A stretch of DNA of 64,000 bases from NCBI GenBank assembly GCA_032622095.1, contig CP136066.1:100213319-100277318 (forward strand), read 5' to 3'. The DNA comes from Siphonodentalium dalli (lineage: Eukaryota > Mollusca > Scaphopoda > Gadilida > Siphonodentaliidae). A program made the translations under genes and the position numbers. This document shows, one piece after another, positions 11,971 to 54,640 of the stretch. The notes beneath the pieces are model-generated. The model saw nothing but the letters and a program-made list of their open reading frames with translations, was not told where the DNA came from and did no database searches. Each line of letters opens with the position of its first letter. The first letter of the stretch is position 1.

Positions 11971-12051
11971 GCTGTGCTGTTCCTGTGGGTCAAGGGGCAA
12001 CAAAGACATTGGATGACGTTGAAATTGATGATGATTTAAACAGACCCGAGC

Positions 12052-12978: not shown

Positions 12979-12998
12979 ACATAGATCGGACGCAGTTA

Positions 12999-14640: not shown

Positions 14641-14650
14641 ACTTGATACC

Positions 14651-14848
14651 CTATTTCCAAGATGGCAGCCAAAATGGCAACCGGAAATCGAGAAATGAAC
14701 TAATTTCAACACATTCGCCAAAAAGATATATCACCATCTCACTCTTACATTTCACTTCCATTTCATCATAGCTGACAACGACCTTAATCCCCCAAACTAC
14801 TGACCCACATTCCATACGAAACGGACAACCTCTATACTCTTCCAACCT
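14651..14848. other. Junction between two retrotransposons
   Basis: About 200 bases that belong recognisably neither to gypsy pol nor to the Bel/Pao LTR. No feature seen. Confidence 0.4.
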
Positions 14849-17270: not shown

Positions 17271-19136
17271 GACTAAACAAACCCTACAAACCTACTCCCA
17301 CATAAATAAAACCATTCCATATGAAACTACTTTATTTTGAGACTACTATCAAACGGCCCACCCTATGAGTATACTCGCGATAAATTGTTTTAAAAAACCC
17401 ATAAAGCTGATGTCCATATTTATTTGAAACAACTTGAAGTGTCTGTAATCACATAACATGATGGGCCTGGTCACAAGTTAACCGAAACGACTCCCAAAGC
17501 TTAAATTTTGTTGTCCCTTTCATATCATCAATCCCCATGTATATAATTGATATACAATAAAATATGTTTAAATCAAATCAATATTAGCACTTGTTTTGTA
17601 TTTCTAAATAGCGACTCGTATGGAATACGTACTGTTTACTCCGATGTTTACACATGTATCGTATACATATTAAGTTCTTGCAGTTATGATTCGGAGGTAG
17701 ATTGTGGCTTACGTTCTTATAATTCATATTAACTGAGCAATTTGATCAAAGAAATCTGTAATCTTTTTATTTTATTTTTCGGAACATTAACAATATTCGG
17801 AATGCCTAACTGCCACAACGAGTCCATGTGGGAGTCAGGTATCCCCAAAATGCCCGTGAATACACGGATTAAATGGACATGGCTCGCTCATTGTAACATC
17901 AAACTGCATACACAACCTGAGAGGAGGAAGGATATAGTAAGATATCTGCGAGAACTATTTCTGACCTCATCCGGCCTTATAGCATGAGGTGATTATCATG
18001 ATCCAGTCTGTGTAAAATACTGACTCCCAATTGCGACGTATCTGTCGCCCGGAACCGCAAAGGGATTATTCAAAAGGTAGAATTGCATGTTACAGAATGA
18101 GGCACCAGACCACCATGGAATTGTAATATAAAACATCAATAATATCTAACAATAAAATGAATTGACAACAGTTCCCGGTGTATTGTCGTTACTATGGTAA
18201 CAAATTCGTCTATGTCACTGGAAATCCATTTCATATGACATATGATATGTTTGACCAAATTATCGAATTTAATAAGAGATGCAAGCGGGTCTCAAACAAA
18301 GAACATTACCTCGACGCATGCTTTTGCAATTTTGAATGTATATTTGACAATTGTGAGACGGAATTATTCGTTATAGTTCATATTGCTGTATTCGGGTAAG
18401 CAGGAGACAACAAGCTGCATTATACAAGACTCGTTCAGTGTGTAATAGACCCTTTCAATTGATCAATTATACTGACAAGGCAATCTATTTTCATACTCCC
18501 TTTTATCTCATGTTAAATATTGTTGGCATTGATGACATCGGCGAGTCGAGTAGAAATCTATGTCGTAGCAGCATAATTATGTTATCAATAGAGTATAAAT
18601 TACTCCGGTAGAAACATGTACTTGTGGGACTTAAGGTCTATAACAATGGGAATTTGCAAATGGTCGATTTAATCAATTTGCTGTATCCCCATTATATACG
18701 CAAGCAACTAACCATATCATCAGATTTGTATTTCTAATATATCTTGTTTTTTTTAAACTAACAACATAATTATAGATATTGGTCACTGACTAGAATATTC
18801 CATAAATTCTGCATTCAATAGAGCGTTGAGGACAAGCAACCACTCAATAATAACCGTCAAATGACAACCGTCACGATCCTCGACTTAGGACAGACTATAG
18901 GTTAGAAAGGGAAATGTGTTATGTGAATCAACACATATTTACTTATACAACACACTTACGAATCTTAATCAAAGTGCGACAGTCTCTGACGTAATAGTAA
19001 AATAATAGAACTCTTAGTTTTCACACTTATAATTAAATTACTTTCAGCAGAAAGGATATACATGCAAGTATATTATAGCAAATGCGAATCTCGTACTGTC
19101 GCCCATATGCCACCAGTATTTATAGACCTTACTCAT
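17271..19136. other. Spacer, no gene seen
   Basis: AT-rich. Short frames near 17742-17987 and 18178-18399 have no recognisable motifs or splice context. No repeat structure found. Confidence 0.5.
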
Positions 19137-19343
19137 ATTTAATTTCGCGTAGTACTATTTTCCCTCAGTTTAGAATTCGCGCACTTTAAATTCGCGCACC
19201 TAGTTGCGCGAATTAAAAACTGACAAAAATATTTCATTAATATTTCCGTGATATTTTCGTATATTAAACACCATCGCGGCGGATTAACATCCTGTAGACA
19301 ATAAACTAGTAACTACATACATCATCATTTTGTGGCGACCTGG

Positions 19344-19890
19344 AATATTATAAAGTTATTATACAGTATGTGTTTTTCTTGTACGAGTCCAGGTTGTGGT
19401 GGAATGTCATATTGGCCGAGACAATATGACTTTTCACCACAACCTGTACGAGTACAAGAAAAACTCATACTGTACACAACATTGTATAATGACATTTTTA
19501 TAATCCATATATATGTTTATTGGGAAAATATATTTATTTGGGAATAAAACTTTAGTGGTTATTTTTGGTATTTGTCGGCACTTAATTATCTTTAAAAGCA
19601 TGTATTTGATCATCAGAAAGCATGAGTTGGAACAGTATATAAACACGGAAAGGAAAAAAAACTAAATGCGGAAGTGAAATGTCTGCTAAATCCACCAGTG
19701 TTGCGCGCGCATCACAATTTCATTTCACAATAGTTAATTCGTGACGTCACAGATACCCGATACAAAAGTCATATTGCACACTTGTGAGTCCGATATGACA
19801 TTCGAGAGTCCAATAGGACTTTTTCCCGGATTATCACGTGGCGGCTTTTGTCCAATCAGAAAGAGTGTTAGTTACGGGATGAATAATAAT
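19344..19890. mobile_element. Hairpin-headed insertion within MITE family A
   Basis: The segment is absent from copy 2 of the MITE, so it is an insertion. It starts with a long hairpin (19361-19475) and contains a second small palindrome near 19767-19800 (GTCATAT ... ATATGAC) and a TGACGTCA-type motif near 19742. This resembles the foldback elements at 31-36 kb, but the termini are not clearly the same. Confidence 0.6.
19361..19475. repeat. Long hairpin with a CGAG marker in both arms
   Basis: Arms of about 53 bases around a short loop (GCCGAGA). They are complementary apart from a few sites. One site is CGAG at 19384-19387 facing CGAG at 19449-19452, both on the plus strand, giving a tandem G-A mismatch in a hairpin. 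Confidence 0.85.
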
Positions 19891-23195: not shown

Positions 23196-24941
23196 TTATA
23201 ACGATGTCTCAACTATGTGGTAACTCCTGTCACTTGTCCCACAATCGCTATCGCTGTTGTGATTGTCAGTGTGATTATCATTGGACGCATCAATGTCCTC
23301 AGTGCGCGTGTTTCCCACCTCAACAGGCGAGTGCGTCCCAAGAACGTCGGCGTACGTTGGAGGCAATATGCTAGATTCGTCAGCCAGCAGTCTCACGTTT
23401 TCTGAGTTGCAATTGTTTGTTGTTCTGATGAAAGGAATGTTGTGAAGACTCACGCTGCAATTACGCCGAAATCCGTCGCTAGAGAAAATGGAAGACTGAG
23501 GCCGTGACGCCGGTGTCACGTCTCGAGGTATGGTCACTTTAGGTAACCTATTTGGTAACAATGAGCTGTTATTGTGATTCAAACTAACTTGATATCTATC
23601 TTGATTTTCAGGCGTTATCATAAGGCGAACACTGGGCGAAAACGTCCCGCGTAAACTTGTTAGCGATTGGCCCATCTTCTTTTTTCGCTCTTCGTCTTTT
23701 GCAATGCTGTCACCATCGCTGTTGTTCAGCGAAGTCGATGTCGGTCTTCTTTGTATCGTCACCATCGACGGTGCGCCGCTTCGCATTCGAATAAAGCTGT
23801 TTGATTGTCGATTGCCAAAGAATCCATTTATATAACCACTACTCATAGATTGAGCAATACTGCCGTATGTCTGACTGCGAGAGAATGGTCGAGATATCAC
23901 TCGATTTCCTCCCCGAGCGTTACCCGGAGGAACGATGGGTTCCATGAGCAGTGCTTCGGAGTAGCTAGGCACCATTGTGTTGTTGTTAACAACACTGTAC
24001 TCAATATCCGTACTATCCATGGTATTCACCCGCACCATTTGACTTTGATTGAGCGAGTTCTCAAGATAATTGGTACCAAATATCTTGTGAACGTGGAATC
24101 GAACATAAGCTGTTTTATATTCAACTATCACACGTAAAGGCCAGGATAACATAAATAATGAGGCTATCCAAAATATCACATGAGAAACATACCACGGTAG
24201 ATTGTCAGGGTCCGCAAACGCCACCATGTATTCTTTGAAATTAACATTCAACAAATCCATACCCTCCCGGGCTTCCATATAATCATCTCTACTCTCATTC
24301 TGTTGAAAGAATCGCGCTCTTTGGTCTTCGAAGTCATACTCAGAGTCCATGCTGGCAAAAGAAAATCCCTTACTAAATTTGATTTTGGTCGCGGGGTAAT
24401 TTTCTAGTCCAGCGAGTTTCTTAGAAACATCCTTGTATCCCGCGGAAATGAAATCGAACGCTGACCCCGTCGTGTGGGAGTTAACTCTCTCATAATACAC
24501 TTGAGTCGTAGTAAACGCATCGCCATTCCGATAACGCGTCACTTGTCTCGTACGACGCACGTAATGATAGCAAACGGCTTTCCACCATATTACCGGAACT
24601 GACTCCTTCATTTGCTTAACACGATCATATACCGTGCGCATATCCACTTTATACTGCAGCTCTACTCGAGTGTGACAGTGCCAGCACTCAACAAGGTAGA
24701 CCAAGTATAGCATGATTACGAAGGCCACCGGGATGTATATGAAACCGTCATTGCATGGGCTGTTTCTGTCAAAGTGAGTCGAATGAAAGTCATAGGGTCC
24801 GCGGTTTCCGCTGGACGTGGCGGATATGCGACACCAAGCGATGGCCGTTAGGCATCCATATATGAGCAGCGACAGAATCAGACATTTCCAATGGAGATCC
24901 TTCCTGAGCGATCCGCAGAGACTAAGCTTGATAGGTTTCTG
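23196..24941 (-). CDS. TMEM151: TMEM151 family membrane protein, main coding exon
   Basis: With the 8-codon first exon this gives a protein of about 589 residues, close to human TMEM151B in length. The conserved core is strong: LSLCGSLRKDLHWKC; TM1 ~28-45; TM2 ~75-92 (IPVAFVIMLYLVYLVECWHC); WWKAVCYHYVRRTRQVTRYR; GDAFTTTQVYYERVN; YMEAREGMDLLNVNF; VAFADPDNLPWY; TM3 ~259-280 (FMLSWPLRVIVEYKTAY). The C-terminal ~300 residues are Ser/Asn-rich and probably disordered, with PSYSEALLMEP (as in vertebrate members) and a PPTY WW-ligand motif near the end. The splice acceptor is TTTATTTTCAG just before CAGAAACC at 24941, phase 0. The family is conserved in animals; its molecular function is poorly known. 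It is the only clear host gene here. Confidence 0.95.
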   Translation of the reverse strand, partial: QKPIKLSLCGSLRKDLHWKCLILSLLIYGCLTAIAWCRISATSSGNRGPYDFHSTHFDRNSPCNDGFIYIPVAFVIMLYLVYLVECWHCHTRVELQYKVDMRTVYDRVKQMKESVPVIWWKAVCYHYVRRTRQVTRYRNGDAFTTTQVYYERVNSHTTGSAFDFISAGYKDVSKKLAGLENYPATKIKFSKGFSFASMDSEYDFEDQRARFFQQNESRDDYMEAREGMDLLNVNFKEYMVAFADPDNLPWYVSHVIFWIASLFMLSWPLRVIVEYKTAYVRFHVHKIFGTNYLENSLNQSQMVRVNTMDSTDIEYSVVNNNTMVPSYSEALLMEPIVPPGNARGGNRVISRPFSRSQTYGSIAQSMSSGYINGFFGNRQSNSFIRMRSGAPSMVTIQRRPTSTSLNNSDGDSIAKDEERKKKMGQSLTSLRGTFSPSVRLMITPENQDRYQVSLNHNNSSLLPNRLPKVTIPRDVTPASRPQSSIFSSDGFRRNCSVSLHNIPFIRTTNNCNSENVRLLADESSILPPTYADVLGTHSPVEVGNTRTEDIDASNDNHTDNHNSDSDCGTSDRSYHIVETSL

Positions 24942-25567
24942 CTGAAAATAAAGGACACGAAAGTATAGTATTCGTAAACAGTTTGAGATAAGCAAAACAC
25001 TCAAAACCGTGGGGGTGGCGTGATAAACGCTGATATAGATGTAGATGTAAATAGAGCTTCGGTATCACTAATGTAGCGGGTTTTTTGTTGGTCGCGTAAA
25101 TAGATTTTTCAGAATAGCCACTTGGTTTTGTGTACTAGCACGCCCCCTTATACCAATTCCATAGAGGATACGGGATGTACTAACGTAAATTGTGACATTC
25201 TTCTGATGTCGTTTCACTGGAAACCCTCCAGTAGATAATAGATCATTCCAATATATATTTGTATAACTGGGTGGGAGAATCCATTAGTAAAGAAAGAGTT
25301 AAGTGGTCTGCAAATACCCCCACGGTGCCCAATTAAAACATGGGAAGGACGGAACAAAAAATTAAAAATAAACAAAAAAGGATAACTCTAGAACTGAACA
25401 TGCACATAACGTCATGATGGCGAATCTCTATACCAAAACTAATTCACATCCGACAACCCATGTCTGATATATATACCCGGGCGGACGAACAGACGGACAA
25501 CGTCAATCCAGTATATTTCCATTTCTTCGATAAGTGGGAGTATAATTAAGTATGTTTAACTGAATAC
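24942..25567 (-). other. TMEM151: TMEM151 intron
   Basis: On the minus strand it starts GTATTC right after GAG at 25568 and ends TTTATTTTCAG at 24942, so GT-AG with a pyrimidine-rich end. It is 626 bases, phase 0. Splicing joins a residue pair (E then Q-K-P-I) that matches the E-Q-(R/K)-P-(V/I) context of other TMEM151 proteins. Contains no repeats that I recognise. Confidence 0.85.
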
Positions 25568-26942: not shown

Positions 26943-28450
26943 CTACTCACATTTTGCTAAGGATCACCCATATATTTTGTAATATTTTATATAATATAGC
27001 AATATTGAACATAAATCGTCCTTTTAATAGTTGATTATTATATCTGCCTCTTATTTAATGGGTGTAGCAAATGTTCAGTGGCGTATATTTGCTAAATGGG
27101 GATATGGAATCAGACTACCCCCATTTTGATGAATTTCAATAATTACAAACAAGCAACTAAAATGTATTGAATACAATTTTATTCACCAAAAAACAATGTC
27201 AGTACTTGGTGTGACCTCCGCGGGCATCCAGAACAGCTTGGCAACGCATCCGCATCACATGGACCATGTGGCGGAAGATGTCTTGAGGCAGGTTCCTCCA
27301 TTCCTCAACCAGTGCTTGGCCCAGCTGTTGTAGAGTTGTCGGTTGGACTGGTCGAGCTGTTATTGCAGTCTGCAGCCGGTCCCAAGCATGCTCTATGGGA
27401 TTGAGATCCGGTGATGCCGCTGGCCAGACCATTCACTCGATTCCTTCCTCCTGAAGGTATCGGTTTACCAGTATGGCACGGTGTGGTCTGGCGTTGTCGT
27501 ACGAAATCTTCGCCGACAGCACCCGCAAACGGCCGCACGATTGGGTTCCGAATTTCATCCCGGTAACGCTGTGCATTCAGTGTGCCGTTCTGGATGACAT
27601 ACAGGTCAGTGTTGCCGTCCGTAGTCATCCCACCCCACACCATAACCGAGCCGCCACCATAGCGGTCATGTTCCATCACTTTAGCATCCGTGAATCTCTC
27701 ATTTTGCCTCCTCCAAACCAAAACACGTCTGTCGAGGAAATCTAGACAGAACCTAGACTCATCTGTGAACAGCACGGTCGACCACTGCTGTACTGTCCAG
27801 TTCACATGTTCTGTGCTCCACTGTACTCGGCGTTGCCTGTGCCGTGGTCGCAAAATAACACGAACTGCGGCTCTCCTGGCACGTAAACCAGCAGCGTGAA
27901 GTCTATCGCACATGGTCTGCGTCGCAATTCTGATCCCAGCCGCATTTTGGAGGTTCTTGGCGTTCCGTTGTGATCCGCTGACGACCCCCACCGTGTCTTC
28001 TGTTTGCACTACCATGTGTGTTGTAGCGATTCCACCCCCTGGAGACAACGCTCTGGCTGACACCTAGGTCTGCAGCAACCTGCCTCTGTGATCTTCCAGA
28101 TTGGAGCATCCCCACCCCTCTGCCCAATTCTTGCGCGCTTAAATGACGCCGACGAACCATAGTAAACGTTGGTGAACTCTTACAATCGATGTCCAAGTCG
28201 ATTTGGCAAGAGACATGCGTGTAGAACACTGATTTGTACACGGACGGATTTTGAACCAAATCACGAAAAACATGGTGACCAACTTCTTTGCTGAACAGAT
28301 CTCACCACGGTAAATTACACACCGTCGCAACAATAACACTGAACAATTGATCACTCGTCTCCATTACAGTAAGATACGGAAGGTGGGAATTTCATATTAG
28401 TATAGAAATATGACCATTATATGGGTGATCCTTAGCAAAATGTGAGTAGT
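26943..28450 (-). mobile_element. Tc1-like DNA transposon, full length but dead
   Basis: The terminal inverted repeats are nearly identical over about 32 bases. The left begins CTACTCACATTTTGCTAAGG, and the right is its reverse complement ending at 28450. TA dinucleotides at both outer edges (26941-26942, 28451-28452) are the expected Tc1/mariner target duplication. The length of about 1508 bp and the single central transposase gene are typical. The well-kept repeats and broken gene imply a fairly recent non-autonomous or decaying copy. Confidence 0.92.
27199..28160 (-). pseudogene. Tc1-like transposase (DDE_3), frameshifted
   Basis: Start chosen at MVRRRHLSAQELGRGV (28160), since the upstream residues are terminal-repeat leader. 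A helix-turn-helix domain reads SGRSQRQVAADLGVSQSVV and is followed by the basic HGGGRQR linker. The frame is then lost near 27960-28060, with a probable deletion of about 20 codons, and resumes at LQNAAGIRIATQTMCDRLH. The first catalytic aspartate is in VLFTDESRF; the second (DNARPHRA, about 27470-27500) is only in a shifted frame; the third-residue region is SPDLNPIEHAWDRL in a third segment. So all catalytic blocks exist, but at least two frameshifts separate them. It would have cut and pasted the element at TA sites. Confidence 0.9.
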
Positions 28451-28639
28451 ATAAATGACGATGTATAATGAAGACCTTTTCAATTTACTTTTTTACAGTT
28501 CACCTCGCCTTGAAGGATGTTGTCATGGCAATCGATGTGTATTGTCGTCGGACAAAATAAATTTGTTTATTGAACGTTGTGAAACCTGCTGCATTTTAAT
28601 GTATTTAGAAAAATAAACCAACGGGTGAAAATAAACAAA
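28451..28639. repeat. Fragment resembling the body of foldback element 2
   Basis: Pieces such as GATGTGTATTGTCGTCGGAC, TTTGTTTATTGAACGTTGTG and CTGCATTTTAATGTATTT parallel the right part of 32790-32930 in the same order. A foldback element remnant may sit immediately left of duplication copy A. Confidence 0.4.
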
Positions 28640-30569
28640 ATATGAGCATGTTTATAATCGGCGCCAAATGTGTCAGTAATGCTGTGTAATCATAGCATGC
28701 AGAAAATGAACATTTCAGTAAAATATATCAACCTGATAATCATGTGAGTAACATGCTGTTTTGTGTGAGGCGATGAGCGAGTCGTGCATTATTACTTCGA
28801 ATTTACTATTCTTGACATTAGTGTCTCTTGGAACAAGCTAAATTCCCGTGGATCTGCGCGATAATTCAGTTTATCTTAATTGAGCAGGAATACATCAATA
28901 AAATCGTAAACGTAAAATCAATATGATGTGGTGTTACTACACCGACACCTGTTCCAACCCAATCAACCCGTCATAGACCGCGAAACCATGTTTACTTGTT
29001 AGGAAGCTAAATGAATAAATTTGAATGCAAGTTGGGATATTGTAGACTATTCTCTAATTTCTCTGCATGGTTGGTATGGGAATCACCACGACGTCAGCTG
29101 ACGCCCACACATAACACCGCATATACAGTACCAGTCAGAAGAAGTGGTATATTGAGGCGCGCCTTTATTGCGATATTGAGCGCGCTTAATTTCGAAAAAG
29201 GCGCGATTATAGGGCAATACCAAAAATCTGTCGCTCTTATTGTTTCGATATTGAGCGCAAAATATTGCGATAATAAGCGGGCAAAATTTCATTCAGACCC
29301 GATAGTTTTATATTTATATTAGATATATACTGTGCATAGAGTGTACATATAGCATTTACAACTATAATTATATAGAAATCTAAAACATTGTCTCTACTTA
29401 TGCAATAAAAAATATAATTTTGAGCGCAAGATAAAGCAATATTAAGCGCGAAATATTGCGATATTAAGCGCAAAATATTGCAAAAATATCGCAAGCGGCG
29501 CGCTTTAAGCGTTTCCACTTGCAATATTATTGCGATATTGGGCGCGAAAATAGCGCGTTTAATATACCACTTTTTTGACTGGTACAGGTACTATATTATA
29601 CTGGTATATATAAATCAAGTCTGCTCAACGGATCATCCCGTGATTCTATCCCATGGGGAGCCCCGCACAGATACAAGGATGTGTTCCTTTGCTTCCGTCG
29701 CCTTATAACGATAACCCGACCATCCAGCCACCACGAACGGAAACTCCAAACAACCAGAACGGCATTCAGTCGTCAGTGACAGCAATATAAGTTATTGTGT
29801 TGGATTAGCGGTAACATGGTGTGACATTGACTGCTTGGGGTTTATGTTCAACCGAGTTGTGAAGCGCCTTGGTTGTACATATCATATCGGCTCCAAGCCG
29901 TTACTATCACTCCATACAATACCGTCAATCAACCACAATAACGTATACGTTCTGTCGATAGTCCTGGCCATTCACAACAATTTGACATTTATTCCGATGA
30001 ATGATCAGCAGAAATGTCAAAATCTCATATCGCTCTCTCCATAACGTTCTTCAACGTAAATGACGTTATGAAAAAAGCAGGCCAGCGATAAACGATGAAA
30101 CAGTTGTCTTGGTTTCCCTTATGTTGACAGCTCTATGGACGTATATGCATGGGGTATGTTGCGAGGCTCTCTGACCAATCAAAGACGCTGTTTCTTTTCG
30201 GAGGCCGAACATATAGAGGTTTATTATTATACATGTACATTGTATGTCGAGTTTGTTTGTGTGTTTATTTGTTTCTGCTTTGATTGTGATTGTTTTCTGT
30301 TTCAGAAAACACGAAATAGTATTATCGGGTTTCAAATAATCATACATGTATGCTCCTTGATTTGGGTCTGCATTTGTTCTTACTTTTGCTCACCGCCATG
30401 AAAGATCACTAAATTTCTGCCAAAGGTTTTGACAAATCATCTTTCTATACATGTAGCAGGTTGATAAATAGTTATTACTATATAATAATAATTAGCCCAT
30501 CTGACAATGACTCTGGAGAAAGCTGGAAACAATCCACCAACTACTAGCATTTTGGATCGCGAGAGTACA
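28640..30569 (+). repeat. Tandem duplication, copy A
   Basis: Direct repeat of 30590-32500 along its whole length, with long shared blocks (ATCATAGCATGCAGAAAATG, AGGAAGCTAAATGAAT, CGACCATCCAGCCACCACGA, GACTCTGGAGAAAGCTGGAA). It differs by its own insertion at 29128-29585 and some indels. No conserved reading frame was found; a pyrimidine-rich stretch followed by CAG (near 30303) recurs in both copies but is not convincing as an exon edge. Confidence 0.9.
29128..29585. mobile_element. MITE with GCGATATTGAGCGC-type subterminal repeats
   Basis: Terminal inverted repeats start GTACCAGTCAGAAGAAGTGG at the left and, from the other end, GTACCAGTCAAAAAAGTGG. The element is absent from the matching point of copy B, which confirms insertion. 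Its interior holds many copies, in both orientations, of variants of GCGATATTGAGCGC, probable subterminal protein-binding repeats. No coding capacity. Confidence 0.82.
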
Positions 30570-30589
30570 TGCTTGTAAACGTTGGCAAT

Positions 30590-32500
30590 ATGACCACGTT
30601 TATAATCGGCACCAATGTGTCAGTAATCTTGTGTAATCATAGCATGCAGAAAATGAACATTTCAGTAAAATATGTCCACCTGATAATCACGTGATGAACA
30701 TGTTGTTTTGTGTGAGGCGATTAGCGAGTCGTGCAGTATTACTTCGAATTTCCAATTCTTGATATTAGTGTCCCTTGGAACAAGCGTAATTCCAGTGGAT
30801 CTGCGCGATAATTCAGTTTATCGTCATTGAGCAGGACTACGGCAATACACATGTACATACATTCAATATGATGTTAATACACCGACACCCGTTCCAACTG
30901 ACTGATCAACCCGTCACAGACCGCGAAACCAGATTTACTTGTTAGGAAGCTAAATGAATGAATTTGAATGAATCACGACGCCAGCTAACGCCCGCACATA
31001 ACACCACATATATATATATATACTATATGATACTGGTATATCTAAATCAAGTCTGATCAACGGATTATGCCGTGATACTGTCCCATGGGGATCCCCACGC
31101 AGATACAGGGATGTGTTCATTTGCTTCCTCGTCTTATAACGATAACCCGACCATCCAGCCACCACGAACGGAAACTCCGAACACCCAGAACGGCATTAAG
31201 TCGTCAGGGATAACAATATATAGATAGAACCGCATGAGTGTCTGGATTTTGACGAAATTATCGCACGAGATTTGTTGGTGGAGCGATACCTCGAGTGCGG
31301 GACGCAGTCCCGCGCGAGAGGTATCGCGTTCCGCCAACAAGTCGAGTGCGATAATTCGTCAAAATCCAGACACTCGTGCGGTTCTATTTTGATTACATAT
31401 CTCCGTATCATAGTAAGTTGACTCACAATCGTACATCTCCGATAGAGAAAATGTGAATTTAATTGAGTTTTAACGGCATTTTAGGGGTAACGCAACAATC
31501 AGACAGGGAGCCCGTCTATCCGCGAGTGACATTGACCCATCTTTAATGATGCGTTTGAAATTAAATTCTGTGCCTCGACAAACATATTCTTGAAATGAAA
31601 CTACTTGAATGAATCATCTCATCGATTGATCGCTTATTGTTTCTTTATTGTCGTGATTGAAAAAGTTAAAATAGTAACGACGAGAACCAGTCTAACAACA
31701 CTGAATGAAATAGTTCCGTCGACAGATTGCACTAGTGCGATTCTGAGAATTATCACACGCCTGGAAACTCGTGCGATCATGCGATTTACGTTGATAGGTA
31801 TGTAATAAAAGTTATTGTGGTGGATTATCGGTAACATGGGATCACATTGATCGCTTGGGGTTTATGTTCAACGTGGAGCGCCTAGGCTGTCCATATAGGC
31901 GCCAAGTCGTTAATATCACACCATATAATACCGTCAATCCATCACAATAACGTAAACGTTCTGCCGATAGTCCTGGTCATTCACCGCAATTTGACATTTA
32001 TTCCGATGAATGTTCAGCAGAAAACGTCAAAATCTCATATGAAAAAAGCAGGCCAGTATAAGAGACTTTTTAACGGTTGTCTTGGTTTCCGTTATGCATG
32101 TTGACGGCTCTGTGGACGTATATATACATGGGGTATGTGGTGAGCCTCTCTAAACAATCAAAGACGGTGTTTCTTATCGGTTTATTATTATACATGTATG
32201 TCGAGTTTGTTTGTGTATATATTTATTTCTGCTTTGATTGTGATATTTTTCTGTTTCAGAAAACACGAAATACTATTACCGGGATCCAAATAATCATACA
32301 TGTATGTTCCTTATTTTGGGTCTGTATGTTTATTTAACTTTTGCTCACCGCCATGAAAGCGTTTGACATATCTTCTTTCTATATCTGTAGCAGGTTGATA
32401 AATGGTGATTACTATAATAATAATTAGCCCATCTGAAAATGACTCTGGAGAAAGCTGGAAACAATCCACCATCTACTAGCATTTTTATCCTGATAGTACA
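30590..32500 (+). repeat. Tandem duplication, copy B
   Basis: Second copy of the 28640-30569 segment, period about 1.95 kb. It lacks the 29128 MITE but carries foldback element 1 (31221-31809), so both insertions postdate the duplication or were lost reciprocally. Foldback element 2 begins immediately at its right end. Confidence 0.9.
31221..31809. mobile_element. Foldback element 1 (hairpin head plus body)
   Basis: Boundaries come from the empty site in copy A (AGCAATATA joined to AGTTATTGTG at about 29789). It starts TAGATAGAACCGCATGAGTG. A hairpin of ~80-base arms (31224-31387) is followed by a ~420-base body bounded by TTTTGATTACATATC and its approximate inverse TATGTAATAAAA. No protein is encoded and no target-site duplication is evident. 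CGAG markers face each other at 31266/31343 and 31292/31315. Confidence 0.8.
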
Positions 32501-32908
32501 TAGATAGAACGACACAAGTGTGTGAACTGGTTAACGTTATTGTACGAGTTTGTTGTGACGTGATGGTAAAACGAGAACCGGAGGTTCGAGTTTTACCTCG
32601 CGGCACGACAAACGAGTGCAATAACGTTAACGTGTTCACACAACTGTGTTGTTCTATGTTTATTGCACACTCTGAAGATTGCAGCTTGTAACATACTAAC
32701 GTTTAGGTCGATATTGTTGTATTTAATTGAACAAACATGTGCTTAATGTATACTATAGACATTTTCTGCTCAAGTTGACGTCGCCAGTGACGTTGTTGAC
32801 GTAATAGGTTTGTATTGTTCAAGAGCAATACACATTTTTTATTGATCGTTTCAATTCTGCTGTATTTTGCTGTTTCTCGCGCAAATAAGCCATTGGGTGT
32901 GCAATAAA
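32501..32908. mobile_element. Foldback element 2
   Basis: Starts TAGATAGAACGACACAAGTG with a ~72-base-arm hairpin (to about 32657). The body is bounded by TTTATTGCACAC and its inverse GTGTGCAATAAA, total about 408 bp. CGAG markers face each other at 32545/32613 and 32572/32587. The body contains TGACGT-type motifs. Same architecture as elements 1 and 3, while the sequence between the markers differs. Confidence 0.78.
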
Positions 32909-34419
32909 TTATTGTAAACGATGGCAATGGCTATACACGGACGGTCGTGTGAAGTATATTCCGGTCGTTATACATCATGGATTGAGCGCCTGACGTTAAC
33001 GTCACGTGACTCCTCGCACATATGATAGACAACACAAGGCATGAAACAGGCTCCGCTAGCAAATTTGATACAACCTACGCTGTAATTTGACATTGCATGT
33101 ACGCCAAGCTATGTGTAACACATACAAACTGACGTGTTATCATTGGCATAATTATACAGAATTATTATATAATTATCTAGAACTATCTAAGTCATTCAAC
33201 AACGCCCTTATGGAGTTGATAAGTTATATTCTGAGGATTGTGGCCAAAGTCAATGTCCTGCATCCGCTAATTCCGCAAAACACGACCTGAAACTGCTATA
33301 TACAGAATTAATTGATAATTAAAGTTACACAATTCGTATCATCAGATTCCAACAATAACAACAACAACAACAACAACAACAGAATCGATTAGTTACCAAA
33401 AACAATGCTAACCACTGTCAATTCTAGTGTAAAATTTCCGAAACGTGTTATATATAAACATTAAGTTGAACACATTTTTTTCAACTAGAGTATGCCGGTC
33501 GGCTCGTTGAATATTTGCTAGGCCGCCAAATGTTCCAGGTGGTGAAACATAACCGATTTAAAAATCGATATCTGCTAACTCTGAGCTTCAATGGGTGGGT
33601 TCCTCGGTTGGGATGAGATATTTGTGACCCCCGAAGCCAAAACATAGTAATGTAGGGGCGTTAATGCGGATTATGTAACTTTAAGCACGTTATCTCTTCT
33701 AGAAAACCAATAAAGGTTGCTGAACTTGTTGTTAATGCAATATCGATCCCAGAATGTGACGAAGCTACGAAAAACTCGACCTCGCATCTCTCCGAAGCGT
33801 TTCCTGTATAATATAATTTTATATAACAGATAACCTTGAACACTAAATATCATAAATTGGCCCTATATAGCTATACGGACTCAGACATCTCCTCACGCAT
33901 GCGCAGTGGTAAAGAAGTCAACATCTCCCGCTAATTTGATGGTGATAGCTTTCTCGTGTCTTGTACGCGTCATTCCCCGAGGCGAACACTTTACAATGGA
34001 ATTTTTGAATCAACAAGACAGACACGCAACGAAGAACATCGCGCAGTAACAATGTCCTGCAGGCATCGCGCGGTCACGAGCAAACGAAACTCTCACTGTC
34101 CGTCATTGTATCTGCATGGTTTACACTGAAACTGCATATAAAATTGCTGTGCACCAGTACAATTAACACCACAATGGAACGTGTACAATGTATGTGAGTA
34201 GCGCTCTTGGATAACTTTTTGTTCGTTCCATGTAGCAGTAGTCCTAAGCCTTATTTTATGTTAATTTGGATTACTTCTCAGTTATCTCGCATTGAAATTG
34301 CGTCAAAACTTGTGTCTTGTTCATTAAAAATAATCCATTGTAAATAGAATCGATGTCCATTATAATTTTTCAGAAAATAAACTTGCATCCGAGGCTTATT
34401 CTCACAACAAACTCCGATG
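32909..34419. other. Spacer, no gene seen
   Basis: AT-rich; a CAA microsatellite sits at 33351-33382. No supported gene. Confidence 0.5.
33351..33382. repeat. (CAA)n microsatellite
   Basis: About ten ACA/CAA triplets with one early interruption. Confidence 0.95.
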
Positions 34420-34810
34420 ACATTTTAACGGAATGATAAGCAAATTGTCGTTTAAATGGGCATTGTACACTAAATTCAGCCATTTATTGGACAAACTACT
34501 TTTATACTCAACAGAATATATGCAACAAATGAATGGATTTGAGTAATGGGTCAGTTCAAAATACACATAGGAGCTCTGTGGACAATGCAAACAACATGCT
34601 AATTATAATGAAAATAATTTTATGACTACAGTCATAAAATCAATGATAATTCATAGAGCACATGAGTTTATTTTTTGCACTAATCCAATGCTTAAATTCA
34701 TTCATTTGTTGCATATATTCTGTTGAGTATAAAAGGAGATGGTCGCATGATGACCGGATTTGGTGTACAGTCCCCATTTAAAGCTAATACAGACCTACAT
34801 GTGAGAAGTG
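34420..34810. mobile_element. MITE-like element with long inverted repeats
   Basis: The inner arms are nearly perfect over ~55 bases (34499-34552 and 34683-34739, containing CTCAACAGAATATATGCAAC). Weaker similarity extends outward for about 70 bases on each side (AAATGGG, TGTACAC blocks). The centre has a small perfect palindrome, ATTTTATGACT / AGTCATAAAAT (near 34617-34640). No coding capacity. Confidence 0.75.
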
Positions 34811-36124
34811 TGAAAGAAGAAAAGAGTTACCGTATATTCTAAAACATTGGGCGATTGGGGGGGGGACTAATAGCACATTGTGCCAACATTTTTTATATCA
34901 AGATAAGCAGTGTTAACACGAACTGCATGGCTGCTTATCGTCAGCGAACAATGTCAGAATCACGAGAAGGGTAACGTCACTGGAATTAGTGTTCGTTATA
35001 TTCGATGTCGGTTTTCACCCGTAGTTACGATTACGGTTTCGAATTTTAAACAAAACTCACAAATTCATCATATGGTGAATATGTTCGCGAACATTTTTCA
35101 GCTCCTCAATTTGGTAGGTGACTTTGAGATGTTATTCTTAAATTGTGATCGCATGTGGCCTTTGTCTTCATATATTAGTGACAATCAAATTATTCTTCGT
35201 CTTGAAACACAATATTCTTACGAAATACCAAGCGCTAAGTGTGACGACGAATCACTGTTTACAGTATGCCACCATCTGTCGCCAGCTGCAATGAAGCTAT
35301 CAACTAACAAATACAATAACGAACTGAACGCCGTGCTTCTGAAAAACTATTTGGCACAGGTAAATCAGGCACATCACCATCTCTGAACGCTAAGAGTACA
35401 GAAGACAGATGTGCATAAAATGGTGAATGCTGTAATTAATCATCTAAAATGTCTCTGAAAGTGAAACAGAGACATAAATGATAGCATTGACTGACTGTGT
35501 GCATCTGTTATGTCGCGCGTTATAAACCGCGTGGAGATCATTGCCAATAAAGTTTGTTTTACATGCCGGACATGTTCTGTTCTGTCCTGCAAGGAGGACC
35601 CACCCAATCTCCTGTTTCTATTGGAAGATGGTGTTTTCTTGTTCGGAATTTGAAAAACAGGATAGTTTCTGGTGTGCCTAATTTTTGAAATTATGTTTCC
35701 TCTCTGAAGTAGGTTTTTATTTCCCGGTAAAACTTATATTTAGTGGACGAATGTATAGTAACTATAGCCAGTCCTGAATATATAAGTCTTGCAATTGTTA
35801 TAGTTAAACTAAATATTTTTGAGGATTCCACATGGTGCTTATCACACACTCCATTGAAGCCAAGTTCATTCAATGGTCTTCAATAGGTTAGATGTATAAT
35901 TTGTCCTTGTTGTTCGGTTGTCTATCACCAGTGTTGAACTTGGTACAGTAGAACAAATCATATATTTCCACTTATCAATGGCACCCCATAGTTCAGTATC
36001 TGGAGTTTAGCTTTTACAGCGATGGAGATCATTTTAAGTTCCCCATAAATCATAGCGGTTTTTTCAATCAAAGAATATATTCAGAAACCATAGTTCAAGG
36101 CGCTCGATGATGGCGTTAGTAAAT
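34811..36124. other. Spacer with one unassigned open frame
   Basis: Contains a G homopolymer near 34857-34865 and an open frame at 34910-35386 (plus, 158 codons). The frame shows no family likeness, signal peptide or splice context. It is mildly unusual for its length in AT-rich DNA but not supportable as a gene. Confidence 0.4.
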
Positions 36125-36534
36125 GCACAGAACGACACGATGTGTAAATGGATTTGTCAATACGGCACGAGTGCTGTCGCGTCAGGATAGCACGAGAGGC
36201 GCTTGCGCCTCGAGTTCTATCCTTCCGCGACAGCACGAGTGCCGTATCGACAAACCCATTTACACATCGTGTCGTTCTGTGTTTATTACACGCTTCGCGC
36301 CCTAGAATCCGTGCATTAAAAATACAGGATTAGAAGGTTTATTTAGGCTCGTACAGGGCGTGTTTGTCATGTGTGATGATTCTTTTATTTAAATAGTTCC
36401 AGTTTCGTGGTTGAGGCGAACGTCATTTACGTCATTTTACGTCAACGAGATGCGTATGGAACGTACGTTGCATACGGATTTGTGAATATGGAACGGCAAT
36501 AACACTGTACTTCTAGGAACAAGCGTGTAATAAA
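36125..36534. mobile_element. Foldback element 3
   Basis: Begins CACAGAACGACACGATGTGT with a ~77-base-arm hairpin (36125-36280). The body is bounded by TTTATTACACGCTT and its inverse AAGCGTGTAATAAA (ending 36534), total about 410 bp. CGAG markers face each other at 36168/36236 and 36193/36211. The body contains repeated CGTCATTTACGTCA-like motifs, as in element 2. Confidence 0.8.
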
Positions 36535-38711: not shown

Positions 38712-39115
38712 TTAAGGGGAGGACAATGTTTGAATGGGGATTTCCATGCAAATCTGCGGGGCAAAAGTTATAGAGTTACACATACTTCTGAGTGTGACTT
38801 GATGGGCATTGAAAACAATAGGTATCTATCTGACGGGTCCGCTTGGAACTTGTTCCATTATAATGTTGGTATATTTATTTTTGAATTTTATATTGATTTT
38901 TCAAATGAAGATCAAGTGATGTAATTCCAGAATTAAAAAAAAAGAAGATATATTGATTGCAAAATTTTATAATTTACCAAGCGGACCCGCCAGATGAATA
39001 GCTGTTGGTTTCAATACCACATCAAGTCACAATCAGAACTGTAACTCTGTAACTTTTGATCCGGAGATTTGCAAGGAAATACCCATTAAAAATTATTCAC
39101 TTGACCTCCCCCTTA
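38712..39115. mobile_element. MITE with ~130-bp inverted arms
   Basis: The arms 38712-38857 and 38977-39115 are inverted copies, sharing TTGCAAATCT/ATGCAAATCT, AGAGTTACA, TGTGACTTGATG and GGGTCCGCTTGG. Ends read TTAAGGGGAGG and, from the other side, CTAAGGGGGAGG. A TTAA target of piggyBac type is possible at the left, but the right end is mutated. No transposase. Confidence 0.8.
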
Positions 39116-39468: not shown

Positions 39469-39838
39469 ACACGCACACGATTGGATAGCGAAATATACTT
39501 AATCGGGGTTCACGATTAGATAGCGATTGCTATTAAAATGAAATAACAAGTAGCACGCGAGGTTAAGATTGAGGCAAGGATTATTGACGAAATAAAGGAA
39601 ATGCTTGAAGAAGTGCTTTTAAATCAGTTGTGGTGTTTTTTTTCAAACAAATCTCCGTTATTTCGTCAAAATACGTTGTATATAGAGTTATCACCCTTTC
39701 GATTAACTCATGATACTAATTTCGAAATGTAAACATAACCTCGCATGCATGTCACCTGTTACTCCGGTTGCATAGCAATCGCTATCTAATCGTGAACATC
39801 GCTCAAGTATATTTTTCTCTATCTAATCGTGTGCGTGT
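39469..39838. mobile_element. MITE with ~62-bp terminal inverted repeats
   Basis: Ends ACACGCACACGATTGGATAG and the inverse ATCTAATCGTGTGCGTGT. The inner TIR block GTTCACGATTAGATAGCGAT is perfectly kept on both sides. About 370 bp, no coding capacity. A CA on each flank might be a 2-bp target duplication, but this is weak. Confidence 0.85.
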
Positions 39839-40225: not shown

Positions 40226-41021
40226 CACTCTTATAACTAATGTGTAGAAACGATTACACATCAAATGTGTAAACCCGGTTAATACACATAGCAATGTGTA
40301 TTTTTACATACACATACATTGACCAAGTGCCGTTCTACACATAATGTGTATATTTTGTTACACACAATTGTGTAAAAACGTAGAGCATGCGCACTGAGGT
40401 GCCTTCAGTTTCATAGTCTGCTACGTGACGGCCATATTGTTTGAGTATATTTTTGGAATACAATCTACAGCGATCGTAGACAAGGATGTAAGTTCAGAAT
40501 TCCAATTTGTGGGTTTAGTATTAATAGTATATGAGGATTTATTTGTTAAAACTTTCATCGTGATTACTGCCCTTAGACTCTTGTTATGATTGTTGTAATA
40601 ATACTAATATTATGCAATCACGCCTCGACCCTGGTTTGTTCATTCAAAGCAAAAACTCACAGTACAGAACAAAATACTACATACCACTATGCGCCATGAA
40701 AGTTTTAACATATAAATCTGCATATATCTTTAATACTATACCCACAGGTCGGACTACTGAACTTGCATTTCTTGTCTACGAACTGTGTGTGTAAGAACCT
40801 ACACAAAATGTGTAAGGGATATGTGTTCATTTTATACACACAGTTGTGTATAAATGTGTAAAAAATTACCCATTTATGTGTAAAAATTGTTACACAATTT
40901 GTGTACGAAGATGAAACTACACATATACTACACAAATATGTTTAAGATCAAAATTGAATAATGATTGTGTAGCAGGACTACACATTTTGTGTATAAAACC
41001 TACACATTAGTCATAAGAGTG
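40226..41021. mobile_element. TA-target MITE packed with TGTGTA subterminal repeats
   Basis: TA dinucleotides (40224-40225, 41022-41023) flank inverted ends CACTCTTATAACTAATGTGT and the inverse ACACATTAGTCATAAGAGTG. The outer ~170 and ~230 bases contain many ACACAT/TGTGTA words in both orientations, often as small palindromes such as ACACATAATGTGT. The interior (about 40390-40520) instead has promoter-like words: GCATGCGCA, GCCATATTG and a donor-like GATGTAAGTT. No transposase. The TA target suggests Tc1/mariner mobilisation. Confidence 0.85.
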
Positions 41022-49146: not shown

Positions 49147-51607
49147 CCGGTCCCGATACTAACGTAAAATCCCAGGATGATTTATAAAAATATTATACAG
49201 GGGCCCCTGATGATACATGGGGAGAACGACACACGAAAAGCCATGTGCTTGCTGTCGTTCTCCCTTTCTACCAGATATATCACGTATTACCATATCCATT
49301 ATACCAGTTCCTTATTGGTGGACAAATAAACAATGCTTAAAACAATAATGTCAGCCAGTACTAGTGCTAACGTGGGCATATACCAACGTAGTGCCTCTCT
49401 CAACAGTTGAGACTGCATGTTCTGAATATTGGCACATTTTAGGGGTAGTTGCTATTAAATTACTACGAATTATTAGGTATAGCTGTCAGCGAATATAATG
49501 TAATGTTTTATTTCCAGCCGTTACAATTGAATATACAGTATGTGATATTCCATTCATTGTTGGGTGTCAATATTATGAGTATAAAACATAGTCTAATTCT
49601 TTCCGTCTGAGTCTTTTGTTGTCCGTACTGCTAGTGTCGGTAGTGAAGTCGTCAGTTTTTACGCTGATGCCAGATAATCTGTTTGTATGTTTGTTGATTT
49701 ACGATATTCTGGAAAACATCATATGCTGCATCGGGGAGAAATATGTGCATTGCAGTAATACAACAACACAGTATTCCCAAACAGGACTGATATATAACCT
49801 GGATATAGCTTGACTCGTATGCCATGTACTTAATGGAATAATTCTTGGTCCAGATCCATGCATTATCTAGTTGATGGCGAGACCAGAGACTTGTCTTTCA
49901 TACTGTTATTTTGAACCATGTACTTTGTAACCGTCAAACTTACAACTTGGTCGAAAAAAGAAACTGCTCAGTTTCGAAACCGTATAACAGATATACACCA
50001 GTAACACTACGTGAATATTGCACAACATTTATATGTAACTGTGTTCCGATTATTGCGATATGAGAATCTCGCAACATGTTGCTACCGCGTATCTATTTAC
50101 CTTTATTCCTAGTCATTCTGAGACCAATATGAAAGAATGCATTTTCGAGTGATACATAAATGTAGTTACTATATGGATATCACACTGGTATTTGTGCATT
50201 TGCGATACCATTTGCTATGTTCGTTTGAAAGCAGCAATTGTTTCTATTAGAACGTTCTAATACTATTATTGTACATGTACCATTGTGACTATGAGCCAGT
50301 CAATCAGACTCAGTCGAGTGACCCTTTTTCCGCGTGGGCTGGGGTTAATTCATACGATCATTTAGCAATGATATATCAGTTTGAACTGTCCATTTAGTAT
50401 CCAGCTCTATGTGCCAAACTGCTATCAATCACGCACAGCTAAACAATCATAAATGAAAATAACTATAAAAATGTACAAGCCTCTTTTATTTCATCTTGCT
50501 GACCAATCAGTTGCCAACATTTAAGCTAAAGTTAAGGTTCCACAACGAAACACAGTCAATCAAGGTATGTCCATGTTCATGGTCTGGTTACCGCTGTCGT
50601 CAAAGATGGATGTTTAGGGTTATCTACCGTAAGTTGTCAAACACGGTTCTCCGTTTATGAAACCTTTTACATTGGATTTGTTTGGCTTTGTCTGATGCAA
50701 TTTATCGTCTTTTTGTCGAAAGCCATATCATGGCGTTGGTAGATTTAGTGACAGAGGAAAGACTATGAATATAGTTAGCTTGCCGGGAACTGGGAAAACA
50801 TACCACTTCATGTTCAAAGCACCGAACACAAGATATACGAATCGGATTCCGATAGAAAGTCGCGTTCATATGGGATTGTGGTAGCTTCGACACTGCTGAC
50901 CGCTAACGACCCAATGCTGCTCTATGTATCTTCCTACTGAGATATCGGGACCAAGAAATCTCTTGACGAAGTATGACAAAGTGGAACGTCTCGGCCAACG
51001 CCGTGCAAAGTTTTTTATTTGTTAAAAAGGCATAAAGCTCTAGTTTGGTTCATGTGTTATATCTTCAACTCGTTATGTTGTGATATATAGAGGATAAGAA
51101 ATGAGAGAAACACGAATTACATATTCTATTTATCATATGACACCTATAAATTGATTATGATGTCCAAAACGCACACAAATCACTAAATAGCTATATGACA
51201 TCGGCAGCAAAAGGTTAATGTGACGTCACTTCATTGCACCGGAAGCCCAATTACACCTGGTGAACTAGCAGAAATAATATGCAAGCGAAGATATAGTGCG
51301 CTATTCTGTTCTCAGTTTGTGACATTATATCGTATGTTTATTAGATAAATACGAATTACATATTCTATTTATCGTATAACAATGTCCAAAACTATATATT
51401 TCAAGATTATAATTGCGAGAATTTCGGCATCGCGTTGATTGACGCGCACGAATTTGACCTGCATTTAGTTAGAGATGCGGCTCAGCCCAGGCTGCCATTC
51501 AGCCAATCAGAACACACTTTTTGTCAACAAACCAATCAAATTATCGGAAGGTGATATGAACTAGTAGTTCATATGAAATTGATTTATGACATACTTTCCA
51601 ACGTAAA
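49147..51607. other. Spacer with small repeats, no gene seen
   Basis: A small hairpin (GGGAGAACGACA ... TGTCGTTCTCCC, about 49219-49264) echoes the AGAACGACA end of the foldback elements. The 50606-50680 block repeats 47747-47820. ACGAATTACATATTCTATTT occurs at about 51114 and 51350. No gene supported. Confidence 0.5.
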
Positions 51608-51724
51608 TAATGATTGAGTCATATGATAAAAGATTTTATGAAACTCGTTTGATAAATTTGATTCACAACTCTTCTACGACACGTTGTGAATCAAATTTAT
51701 CAAAATCGTTTCATAAAATCTTAT
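51608..51724. repeat. Long hairpin with a G-A marker on the minus strand
   Basis: Arms of about 45 bases (AGATTTTATGAAA, TTTGATAAATTTGATTCACA) fold around a short loop. The only cluster of internal mismatches is CTCG at 51644-51647 facing ATCG at 51705-51708. On the minus strand this is CGAG facing CGAT, again a tandem G-A pair. Confidence 0.8.
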
Positions 51725-52974
51725 ATCACAACAGAACTCGTTTGAGAACCTCTATATCTTATATCCTGATATTGAATCGAACATCCCGTGCCACGTGTTA
51801 CTGAGATTATCTATCATTATATATCTCATCGCGAACCCCGATTACATATTGTTTGATATATAATCCTTGGATTATTGGCTGATGTTATTATACCCAAGAT
51901 TTCGTTCTTGTGAATTGGAAGTTAATTTCTCCCTGCATTAACTCAGACAAGACCATAATGGCCATGGATTAATCTAATTAAGTACATAAACACCGTAATT
52001 ATACAAAAGAACAGTAACTGTGAGACTCAACACCGCTGGTGTATACAAGGGGCGATTACCGATATAATTTTGCAGATTTGTAAGTTTTATTTCATTGGAA
52101 ATTGGTTGCTATAGAGGCCGGCGTATGTAGATTGTGTCAGTCATGAATATTTACTCTGGCTACGCCAGTAGAGAATATATTGCAACAGTCCAACACTTAA
52201 ACACATTTTATGTTCCGATAGAACTTCTGACTGGGAACTTTACTTTGAAAAATTAACTAAGTTAACATATCTCTAAGCTAATAAATATACCCTTAAAATG
52301 TATTTACAATATATGATGATCCCAGCTCCAGATTGCATGATATAGGAAGCTGCCATATATGAGCCAATTTCTCTTTGTGTCGCTTACAATAATGAAATTC
52401 CCCCGGTAATCAAGTTAGTGTCTATCGCGAAATGGCTTACAAAAGGCGCGTACGTGATGTAATTTCGACTTGGGATCTTCGCCTATATTGTGAAACTAAA
52501 AATGTTACGTGCGTTCTTTTTCAATGTTAAAAAGTTCCCCTCAAAACTTAAAAAAGTTCCCAGGTTTTGAGCTGGTGGAATATGATATATACGGTGTTCG
52601 CCATAGTAGACATACATGGCATGATCGTATCTCGCAGGAGCACTATCTAAACATGGACGCTCTGATTTTCTGGTGAGTTGGAATTGTATGTAATTTCAAA
52701 ACGTTCTGAGTTATTTATCATATTGATTCTATTTTGCTGCTCTTGCAATTTGCGTTATCATGTGGATATTTCTATACGCAATATCCCACATTCGCAGGTG
52801 ATTTGTCATACCGCTGACTTTGCAATTTTCTCGCGCTGTCGCGTGGACATTGTGCGATATCCCCAAAAGCCTCGCCATGCAGTATTCATATTGTTGCCAT
52901 TGGCATTTCCATTATCGTCTAGCTGCTACGTGAATGACCCACAATGTAAGTCAATTAAAATATGATTGCGTTCT
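51725..52974. other. Spacer, no gene seen
   Basis: An open frame at 52678-52965 shows no family likeness. No gene supported. Confidence 0.45.
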
Positions 52975-54107: not shown

Positions 54108-54640
54108 TCTCATTAAACCTCACATCCTTATATTGGTTACAGTAATGCCCAAAGTAATTGACCACTTAACCACATCAGACTTATTGGTAATTTTTCAGGA
54201 TTTAAAATCCTGAAAAATTACAAATAATTCTGCTCTGGTTAAGTGGTCAGTTACTTTGAACATTACTGTATGAGGATTGAGTTATCATTAAACCTCACAT
54301 CCTTATATTGGTTACAGTAATGCCCAAAGTAATTGACCACTTAACCACAGCAGAATTATGGGTATTTTTTCAGCATTTCAAATCCTGATAAATTACCCAT
54401 TATTCTGCTGTGCTTAAGTGGTCAATTACTTTGAACATTACTGTATGAGGATTGAGTTATCATTAAACCTCAAATCCTTATTTTGGTTACAGTAATGCCC
54501 AAAGTAATTGACCACTTAACCACAGCATAATTATGGGTAATTTTTCAGGATTTAAAATCATGAAAAAATACCCATAATTTTGCTGTGGTTAAGTGATCAA
54601 TTACTTTGGACATTACTGTATGTAGATGGAGTTAAACCTC
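54108..54640. repeat. Three tandem ~175-bp units, each a long palindrome
   Basis: AAACCTCACATCCTTATATT-type unit starts occur at about 54115, 54290 and 54465, with a fourth partial at about 54634. Within each unit, CAGTAATGCCCAAAGTAATT and GACCACTTAACCACA are followed by the central AGGATTTAAAATCCT and then the reverse complement of the whole. Arms are about 65 bases. The CGAG marker of the other hairpins is absent. Confidence 0.93.

Follow-up and report, generated by a model that had tools for sequence, protein, structure and literature searches.

A 64-kb stretch of DNA from the scaphopod Siphonodentalium dalli (contig CP136066.1, positions 100,213,319 to 100,277,318; the whole stretch is called the window below), which is part of a 2.23-Gb genome of nine contigs, contains non-coding elements that end in a long hairpin. 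The arms of these hairpins are largely complementary, yet at regularly spaced sites the same word, CGAG or CTCG, stands on the same strand in both arms, and a GA (or TC) dinucleotide faces itself. In three lineages of such hairpins, where exact end repeats give a clear orientation, the same-strand word is CTCG with TC on the sense strand of the element. The first-pass annotation of the window had described CGAG words of this kind in three foldback hairpins, here called E1, E2 and E3. This observation holds, and extends further than first described; orientation of the marks relative to the element had been missed, as had one site of opposite polarity in E3.

All six CGAG pairs are present on the plus strand where they had been placed. 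E1 carries them at 31266..31269 with 31343..31346 (marker 1) and at 31292..31295 with 31315..31318 (marker 2), E2 at 32545/32613 and 32572/32587, and E3 at 36168/36236 and 36193/36211. In each pair the left arm reads C-GA-G and the right arm, when reverse-complemented, C-TC-G; on the sense strand, which is minus in these elements, the word is CTCG. The additional site of E3 (36182-36183 opposite 36224-36225) is also a same-strand one, with GA on the sense (minus) strand in a G..A / T..C frame.

Tandem mismatches of this type are far more frequent than expected by chance. Among the two-by-two mismatches of 23 hairpins in the window, GA/TC is the commonest with eight cases, seven of which are CGAG/CTCG, and every other type occurs at most twice. 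When equal numbers of mismatches were placed at random positions in 2000 trials, CGAG/CTCG loops averaged 0.0265 per trial and were never more than one, compared with the seven observed; since E1-E3 share ancestry, their six sites count as two ancestral sites. A scan of the whole window gave a similar picture, with CGAG/CGAG accounting for 5 of the 20 loops in which both flanks are complementary in at least seven of eight positions, and the next type for three.

The marks are preserved in copies from the rest of the genome. First-look searches returned 1166 candidates for E1, 2424 for E2, 1950 for E3 and 362 for E5, a further marked element of the window described below; 40 per family were scored. 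Thirty loci each of E1, E2 and E3 (window copy included in each) and 20 further copies of E5 were cut out, and consensus hairpins of the four families rest on these 107 fetched copies together with the four of the window. As loci were fetched by similarity to marked queries, the sample is biased toward marked copies; a flipped pair costs two of about 155 bases. The first-pass annotation had proposed tabulating mismatches over genomic copies and looking for properly inverted markers. Of 180 marker pairs in the 90 E1-E3 loci, 170 are intact, ten carry one substitution and none is inverted, and consensus arms of all four families hold no inverted CTCG or CGAG.

Consensus hairpins are cleaner than the window copies. 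E1 arms pair perfectly except for the two marks, a one-base bulge, a two-base bulge and the loop, and the four single mismatches of the window copy are absent from the consensus. Beside the loop, E3 retains two G-T wobbles, its two marks and the site whose polarity is reversed, which reads GGAA/TGAC on sense. The E5 consensus, built from the 20 further copies and that of the window, shows three CTCG/CTCG marks, one outer G-T wobble, the outermost column and the loop. In E2, two marks are accompanied by two other fixed two-by-two mismatches and four single mismatches, one of them at the loop. Altogether, nine of 12 two-by-two mismatches in the four consensus hairpins are CTCG/CTCG on the sense strand. 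Inner marks are spaced 25-28 apart, and the outer mark of E5 lies at 32, as does, by hand count, the outer mark of a further hairpin, F6 (see below).

Comparison of the arms shows what is kept. Arm identity is 82-90% within an element and 49-68% between E1, E2 and E3. In a six-arm alignment, marker 1 is invariant as AC-GA-G in the left arms and AC-TC-G in the right arms, whichever element they come from. Each of the six arms also has marker 2, although its copies do not align in a single column block. The two arms of an element thus cease to be alike at exactly the mark bases, an argument for selection acting on the mismatch. Rather than falling at random, the markers are fixed, and they are retained while sequence between them diverges. 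Of the explanations offered by the first-pass annotation, selection is what the invariance of marker 1 in arms so different points to, and readings as a recombination core or as modular assembly of the arms are weakened by conservation of the marks across diverged elements. Selection for wobble pairs on one strand was also considered and rejected: residual single mismatches favour the plus strand in E1 and the minus strand in E3, and several look, on inspection, like CpG decay.

Each hairpin forms the 3' end of a longer non-coding element, mostly 360-590 bp in length, with short asymmetric terminal inverted repeats (ATIRs). Along the sense strand the order is 5' ATIR, body, 3' ATIR, long hairpin, end; sense is minus for E1-E3 and plus for E5. 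E1, a non-autonomous Helitron2-like element, spans 31220..31808 (589 bp) with its hairpin at 31224..31387; its degraded 5' ATIR (31799..31808) has a mate adjoining the hairpin at about 31388-31400, with one mismatch in 12. E2 occupies 32500..32908 (409 bp) with the hairpin at 32504..32657, next to which lies the 3' repeat (32659..32670, TTTATTGCACAC on plus), identical in 12 of 12 positions with the 5' repeat at 32897..32908. E3 extends over 36123..36534 (412 bp) and has its hairpin at 36126..36281, its 3' repeat at 36282..36295 (TTTATTACACGCTT on plus) and its 5' repeat at 36521..36534, the two agreeing in 14 of 14 positions. E5 differs in sequence and shares the layout. Its 5' repeat lies at 51129..51141 (TTTATCATATGAC) and its 3' repeat together with the hairpin at 51618..51735; within the hairpin (51624-51728) CTCG at 51644-51647 stands opposite ATCG at 51705-51708, one arm being mutated. 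A foldback of unsettled orientation, E4 (19362..19474, plus), has one CGAG/CGAG site at 19384/19449. When the window was scanned for inverted mates starting with TTTAT, seven pairs were found, and a strong hairpin lies beside exactly three of them, those of E2, E3 and E5.

The window also supplies empty sites of E1 and E2, since a segment of about 2 kb is tandemly duplicated there (28639-30570 and 30587-32501, pieces 77-90% identical) and the first copy is uninterrupted where the second holds the element. For E1 the empty site is exact (about 29784-29800 in the duplicated copy); that of E2 lies at about 30566-30575 in copy 1, with a few bases changed on its 5' side. The hairpins had originally been taken for independent foldback elements. 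This reading is rejected for E1-E3 and E5 on account of their end repeats, to which E1 and E2 add the evidence of the empty sites; they are instead 3' hairpins of longer elements of rolling-circle type.

Copies elsewhere in the genome have the same organization. With one mismatch tolerated, the 5' repeat was found in 28 of 30 E1, 26 of 30 E2 and 27 of 30 E3 loci. The span from 5' repeat to hairpin end is 409 bp in 20 of the 27 E3 loci with a 5' repeat, and the commonest lengths are 360 bp for E1 (11 of 28; the window copy has 589 bp) and 423 for E2 (12 of 26); single outliers among E1-E3 loci reach 1059 and 727. For the E5 family, four copies aligned upstream share a 14-bp repeat (TATATCACATGAAA / TTTCATGTGATATA) and the layout of E1-E3. 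The exact position of the 5' end is given by head-to-tail E2 pairs, 428 bp apart, at two loci of contig 3 (L132 and L133). At both junctions the 3' end GTTCTATCTAT is joined to the 5' end TTATTGCAC, which locates the 5' repeat at the very end of the element. The two loci are alike, and one tandem event may perhaps have been copied by segmental duplication.

Insertion sites show a 3' flank that is mostly [ATG]TA[TC]. T occupies position -1 in 25 of 28 E1 copies, but not so in E2 or E3. No target duplication was detected in E1 and E3, where the length of direct repeats at the ends does not exceed that in shuffled pairs (4.44 vs 4.41 and 3.65 vs 3.70, respectively). In E2 they are slightly longer (4.42 vs 4.11), with two copies at 11.

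We looked for same-strand marks in hairpins other than those of the window. The survey covered flanks of about 3.1 kb around the 90 E1-E3 loci with the central element skipped, and thus represents the neighbourhood of E1-E3 copies and no random sample of the genome. It yielded 102 hairpins, in which GA/TC makes up 23 of 139 two-by-two loops; among hairpins unlike E1-E5 it still accounts for 12 of 109, followed by the next type with six. CTCG/CTCG occurs in four hairpins outside E1-E5, namely two of type F6 in locus L035, F7 in L079 and F8 in L095. Judged by eye, outer ends of F6 resemble E5 and those of F7 resemble E3; therefore we count three oriented lineages (E1-E3 with F7, E5 with F6, and F8), plus E4. 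The end repeat of F7 has one mismatch, and the second F6 hairpin was oriented by likeness to the first.

Orientation was also assigned by an exact 12-mer mate on one side of the hairpin, a test that picks up unrelated palindromes as well. Such a mate exists for 23 of the 102 hairpins, and their 30 loops comprise eight TC/GA, three GA/TC and at most three of any other type. All seven loops with the CTCG frame in this set have TC on sense; the three GA/TC loops there have other frames and belong to L057 and L075.

To place the elements among known transposons, they were compared with several groups related to Helitrons. According to the available passages of Bao and Jurka (PMC3627910), non-autonomous Helitron2 elements have short terminal inverted repeats that are asymmetric, with the 3' copy directly upstream of a terminal hairpin; the 5' end starts with T, and target duplication is lacking in two non-autonomous families and occurs in three other families. 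The 3' repeat lies there 20-30 bp from the 3' end, and a 5'-terminal hairpin involves the 5' repeat. E1, E2 and E3 agree with this description in their asymmetric end repeats, in a 5' end beginning with T, and in the position of the 3' repeat immediately upstream of the hairpin, which is seen in E1, E2, E3, E5, the E5 family and one F6 copy. Absence of detectable target duplication (two empty sites, and direct repeats of E1 and E3 at the level of shuffled pairs) is a further likeness. In contrast to Helitron2, the 3' repeat of E1-E3 is about 160 bp from the 3' end, because their hairpin measures 154-164 nt. No significant 5' hairpin was found in the 35-nt 5' ends of E1, E2, E3 and E5, which fold like shuffled sequences (z -0.8 to 1.4; the stretch tested began four bases inside the end in E1 and one base inside in E3). 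Same-strand CTCG marks are not mentioned in the Helitron2 passages (PMC3627910). Since no 5' hairpin was detected and the 3' distance differs, we describe the elements as Helitron2-like and stop short of assigning them to that group.

Helentrons and their non-autonomous relatives HINE and DINE-1 are described, in the portions of the papers available to us, as abundant in invertebrates, with sub-terminal inverted repeats of 11-15 bp, a 3' palindrome and no target duplication (PMC4067079, PMC7492417). E1-E3 and E5 have inverted repeats near the ends and a 3' palindrome in common with them, and E1-E3 also share the lack of detectable target duplication. In mite HINEs, as far as the same passages go, the palindrome is 5-10 bp long. 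Insertion in the Helentron/HINE group occurs at TT or T-rich sequence (PMC4067079, PMC7492417); here mostly [ATG]TA[TC] follows the 3' end, and T precedes most E1 copies. Helraiser resembles our elements in having a 3' hairpin; action of this hairpin as a transposition terminator (PMC4778049) and formation and cutting of junctions on the top strand only, in vitro (PMC5876387), are features of Helraiser, as reported in the accessible parts of these articles. Helraiser and canonical Helitron1 differ from the present elements in lacking inverted end repeats and in having 5'-TC and CTAG-3' ends and a 19-bp palindrome, and their available descriptions do not mention same-strand marks (PMC4778049, PMC5876387).

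Two other classes were rejected. Canonical Helitron1 elements begin with 5'-TC, end with CTRR-3' and insert between A and T, while the ends here are TTTATT... or TTATT... and ...CTAT or ...GTAT. Cut-and-paste foldback elements or miniature inverted-repeat transposable elements do not fit, as the ends are asymmetric and no duplication was detected in E1-E3. In the literature covered, which consisted of titles, abstract openings and passages of the papers listed, we found no account of transposon hairpins with CGAG/CTCG marks on the same strand.

We consider it about as probable as its opposite, if slightly less so, that E1-E3, E5 and their relatives are non-coding transposons which move by a Helitron-type rolling-circle route (Helitron2/Helentron-like) and that the marks are polarity signals breaking the symmetry of the terminus. 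The route itself is deduced from the layout. The long hairpin would tell a RepHel transposase where to stop and to join up the sense strand that has been displaced. Because both strands of a long perfect palindrome fold alike, such a palindrome contains no strand information; when extruded as a cruciform or snapped back, it would leave the enzyme unable to distinguish sense from antisense. A self-opposed GA/TC dinucleotide would break this symmetry cheaply, with G-A pairs in the antisense arm and T-C mismatches in the sense arm. Nicking or termination of replication might thereby become strand-specific, similarly to the effect of the GA-doublet bubble in a parvovirus palindrome. More tentatively, spaced self-opposed GA/TC sites in C..G frames, constant relative to the element, may constitute a strand-polarity code that shows an HUH transposase which strand is sense and which is antisense.

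The parvoviral parallel concerns the left-end hairpin of minute virus of mice (MVM), in which, according to the accessible passages of PMC1185569, a GA doublet stands opposite a GAA triplet; the side with the doublet is a potent origin, and that with the triplet is considered inactive. As proposed for the present elements, the arms of a long terminal palindrome become unequal through a GA mismatch, in MVM with respect to the nickase NS1. Unlike our elements, MVM is a virus and its asymmetry is one of length, doublet against triplet; the likeness is one of working, and kinship is not claimed.

Several observations, in addition to the missing 5' hairpin, weigh against the proposed mechanism. The sequence of the MVM doublet itself is reported to be unimportant (PMC1185569, passages available), so the analogy leaves the choice of GA/TC between C and G unexplained. 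DNA parameters part GA/GA from TC/TC by just 0.4 kcal/mol. We saw neither a transposase nor an autonomous partner, no search aimed at RepHel genes having been made, and no biochemical result. Other counts concern polarity. The additional site of E3, with GA on sense, is kept in the family consensus. GA also lies on the assigned sense strand at one GA/TC site with other closing pairs in L057 (2496-2810), and at two sites in L075 (665-817; G..G and C..C frames) if the AT-rich repeat match there is real. The 12-mer test gave the opposite strand to L099:1044-1243, which is related to E2 and has a decayed mark, although the repeat flanks this hairpin on both sides. The sole candidate end repeat of E4 (19341-19352 with 18791-18802), which is weak, matching in 11 of 12 positions, AT-rich and nearly palindromic itself, would put GA on sense. 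Twelve GA/TC loops sit in the 76 hairpins for which no mate was detected. L026:1061-1268 has its outer mark and its GA site properly inverted, as L035:835-1005 has its outermost mark, and a properly inverted mark is also found in L107:528-689, an F8 relative by eye. Finally, two further fixed two-by-two mismatches of E2 are not of the CTCG type.

Alternative explanations have to account for the same facts. The chief rival reads the marks as protein-binding sites in direct repeat, a polar duplex word ACTCGT/ACGAGT recognised by RepHel or a host factor, with the folded mismatch as a by-product. Rep proteins recognise iterons facing one way, and in agreement with such a role the polarity of the marks is uniform along the strand, their spacing of 25-28 and 32 is regular, and the core is mostly AC-TC-GT, often inside a longer local dyad (AAACTCGTTT, GCACTCGTGC, GTACGAGTAC). 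Flanking bases vary, however (CCTCTCG, TTCTCG, AATCTCG), and the constant part is C-TC-G only. This rival predicts the same sequence pattern as a mark in folded DNA; we hold it to be unlikely, though the most serious of the alternatives. Less probable is that selection acts on the antisense strand, folded as RNA or as single-stranded DNA, and favours sheared tandem G-A pairs there, for instance to shape or protect a transcript hairpin. Pyrimidine-GA-purine sheared pairs have special stability in DNA, and the first-pass annotation had expected stable pairs of this kind. RNA parameters put GA, level with AG, first in stability among 12 self-opposed two-by-two loops between C-G and G-C pairs, at -15.8 kcal/mol in a test construct compared with -13.7 for TC, and GA does sit on the antisense strand at the same-strand CTCG marks. 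With DNA parameters AA ranks first and GA is level with AG, GG and TT, and the site of opposite polarity in E3 speaks against such selection as well. The advantage of GA over TC is thus 2.1 kcal/mol in RNA and 0.4 in DNA, suggesting that the energy difference may be small in DNA. Stable G-A pairs may form in a folded strand, but it is TC/TC that the sense strand bears.

Still more improbable in our judgement is that the marks are fossil target-site duplications, left when palindromic sequences inserted into the GA centre of C-GA-G palindromes and GA remained on both sides. This would account for the same-strand rule without any function; direct repeats around an inverted repeat do resemble a duplication, and on inspection the outer arms of E4 and E5, with the inner part removed, would make a palindrome centred on GA or TC. 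It is hard to reconcile with an invariant marker 1 in elements whose arms are only 49-68% identical, with spacing that recurs between families, with inner segments that by inspection share no common end motif, and with orientation that is constant where exact end repeats give it clearly. Chance or mutation bias, by which GA/TC flips would build up through escape from mismatch repair in the hairpin, is strongly disfavoured. A few copies do have a properly inverted mark where their relatives have a same-strand one, but each flip requires two substitutions, seven loops were observed against a simulated mean of 0.03, and inversion was seen in none of the 180 pairs from 90 loci.

Searches of other sequence collections gave no counterpart. 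In viral contigs neither the hairpin pattern nor the CGAG dyad had any match, and the 14 loci with paired dyads, all of which were examined, contain no hairpin. Three matches to the hairpin-type pattern in genome contigs were taken as chance, because their arms pair over at most 30 nt. No Rfam family reached its gathering threshold in the window. CGAG mismatch sites are absent from other palindromic repeats of the window. At 54138-54620 a near-palindrome of 133 bp with TACAGTAATG ends occurs three times in tandem, at intervals of about 175 bp, and long imperfect inverted repeats lie at 34451-34782, 38729-39091, 39469-39838 and 40467-40788. It further contains retrotransposon gag-like (just below the curated cut-off) and RNase H domains at 11131-14771, a TMEM151 coding region at 23196-25004 and a Tc3-type transposase domain at 27305-28063.

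The elements make it testable how Helitron-type transposases recognise a hairpin and end on it, and how an enzyme could distinguish the strands of a near-perfect palindrome. They offer a natural experiment, in which families with hundreds to thousands of candidate copies keep a two-base asymmetry at regular places of their long palindromes. As the marks are short, easily altered and present in several families, the question is approachable with oligonucleotides. The marks also provide an annotation signature for non-coding elements that finders based on Helitron1 ends would miss, judging from the available part of PMC5148889. If the polarity code is true, it would span unrelated families and might occur in other palindromic HUH replicons.

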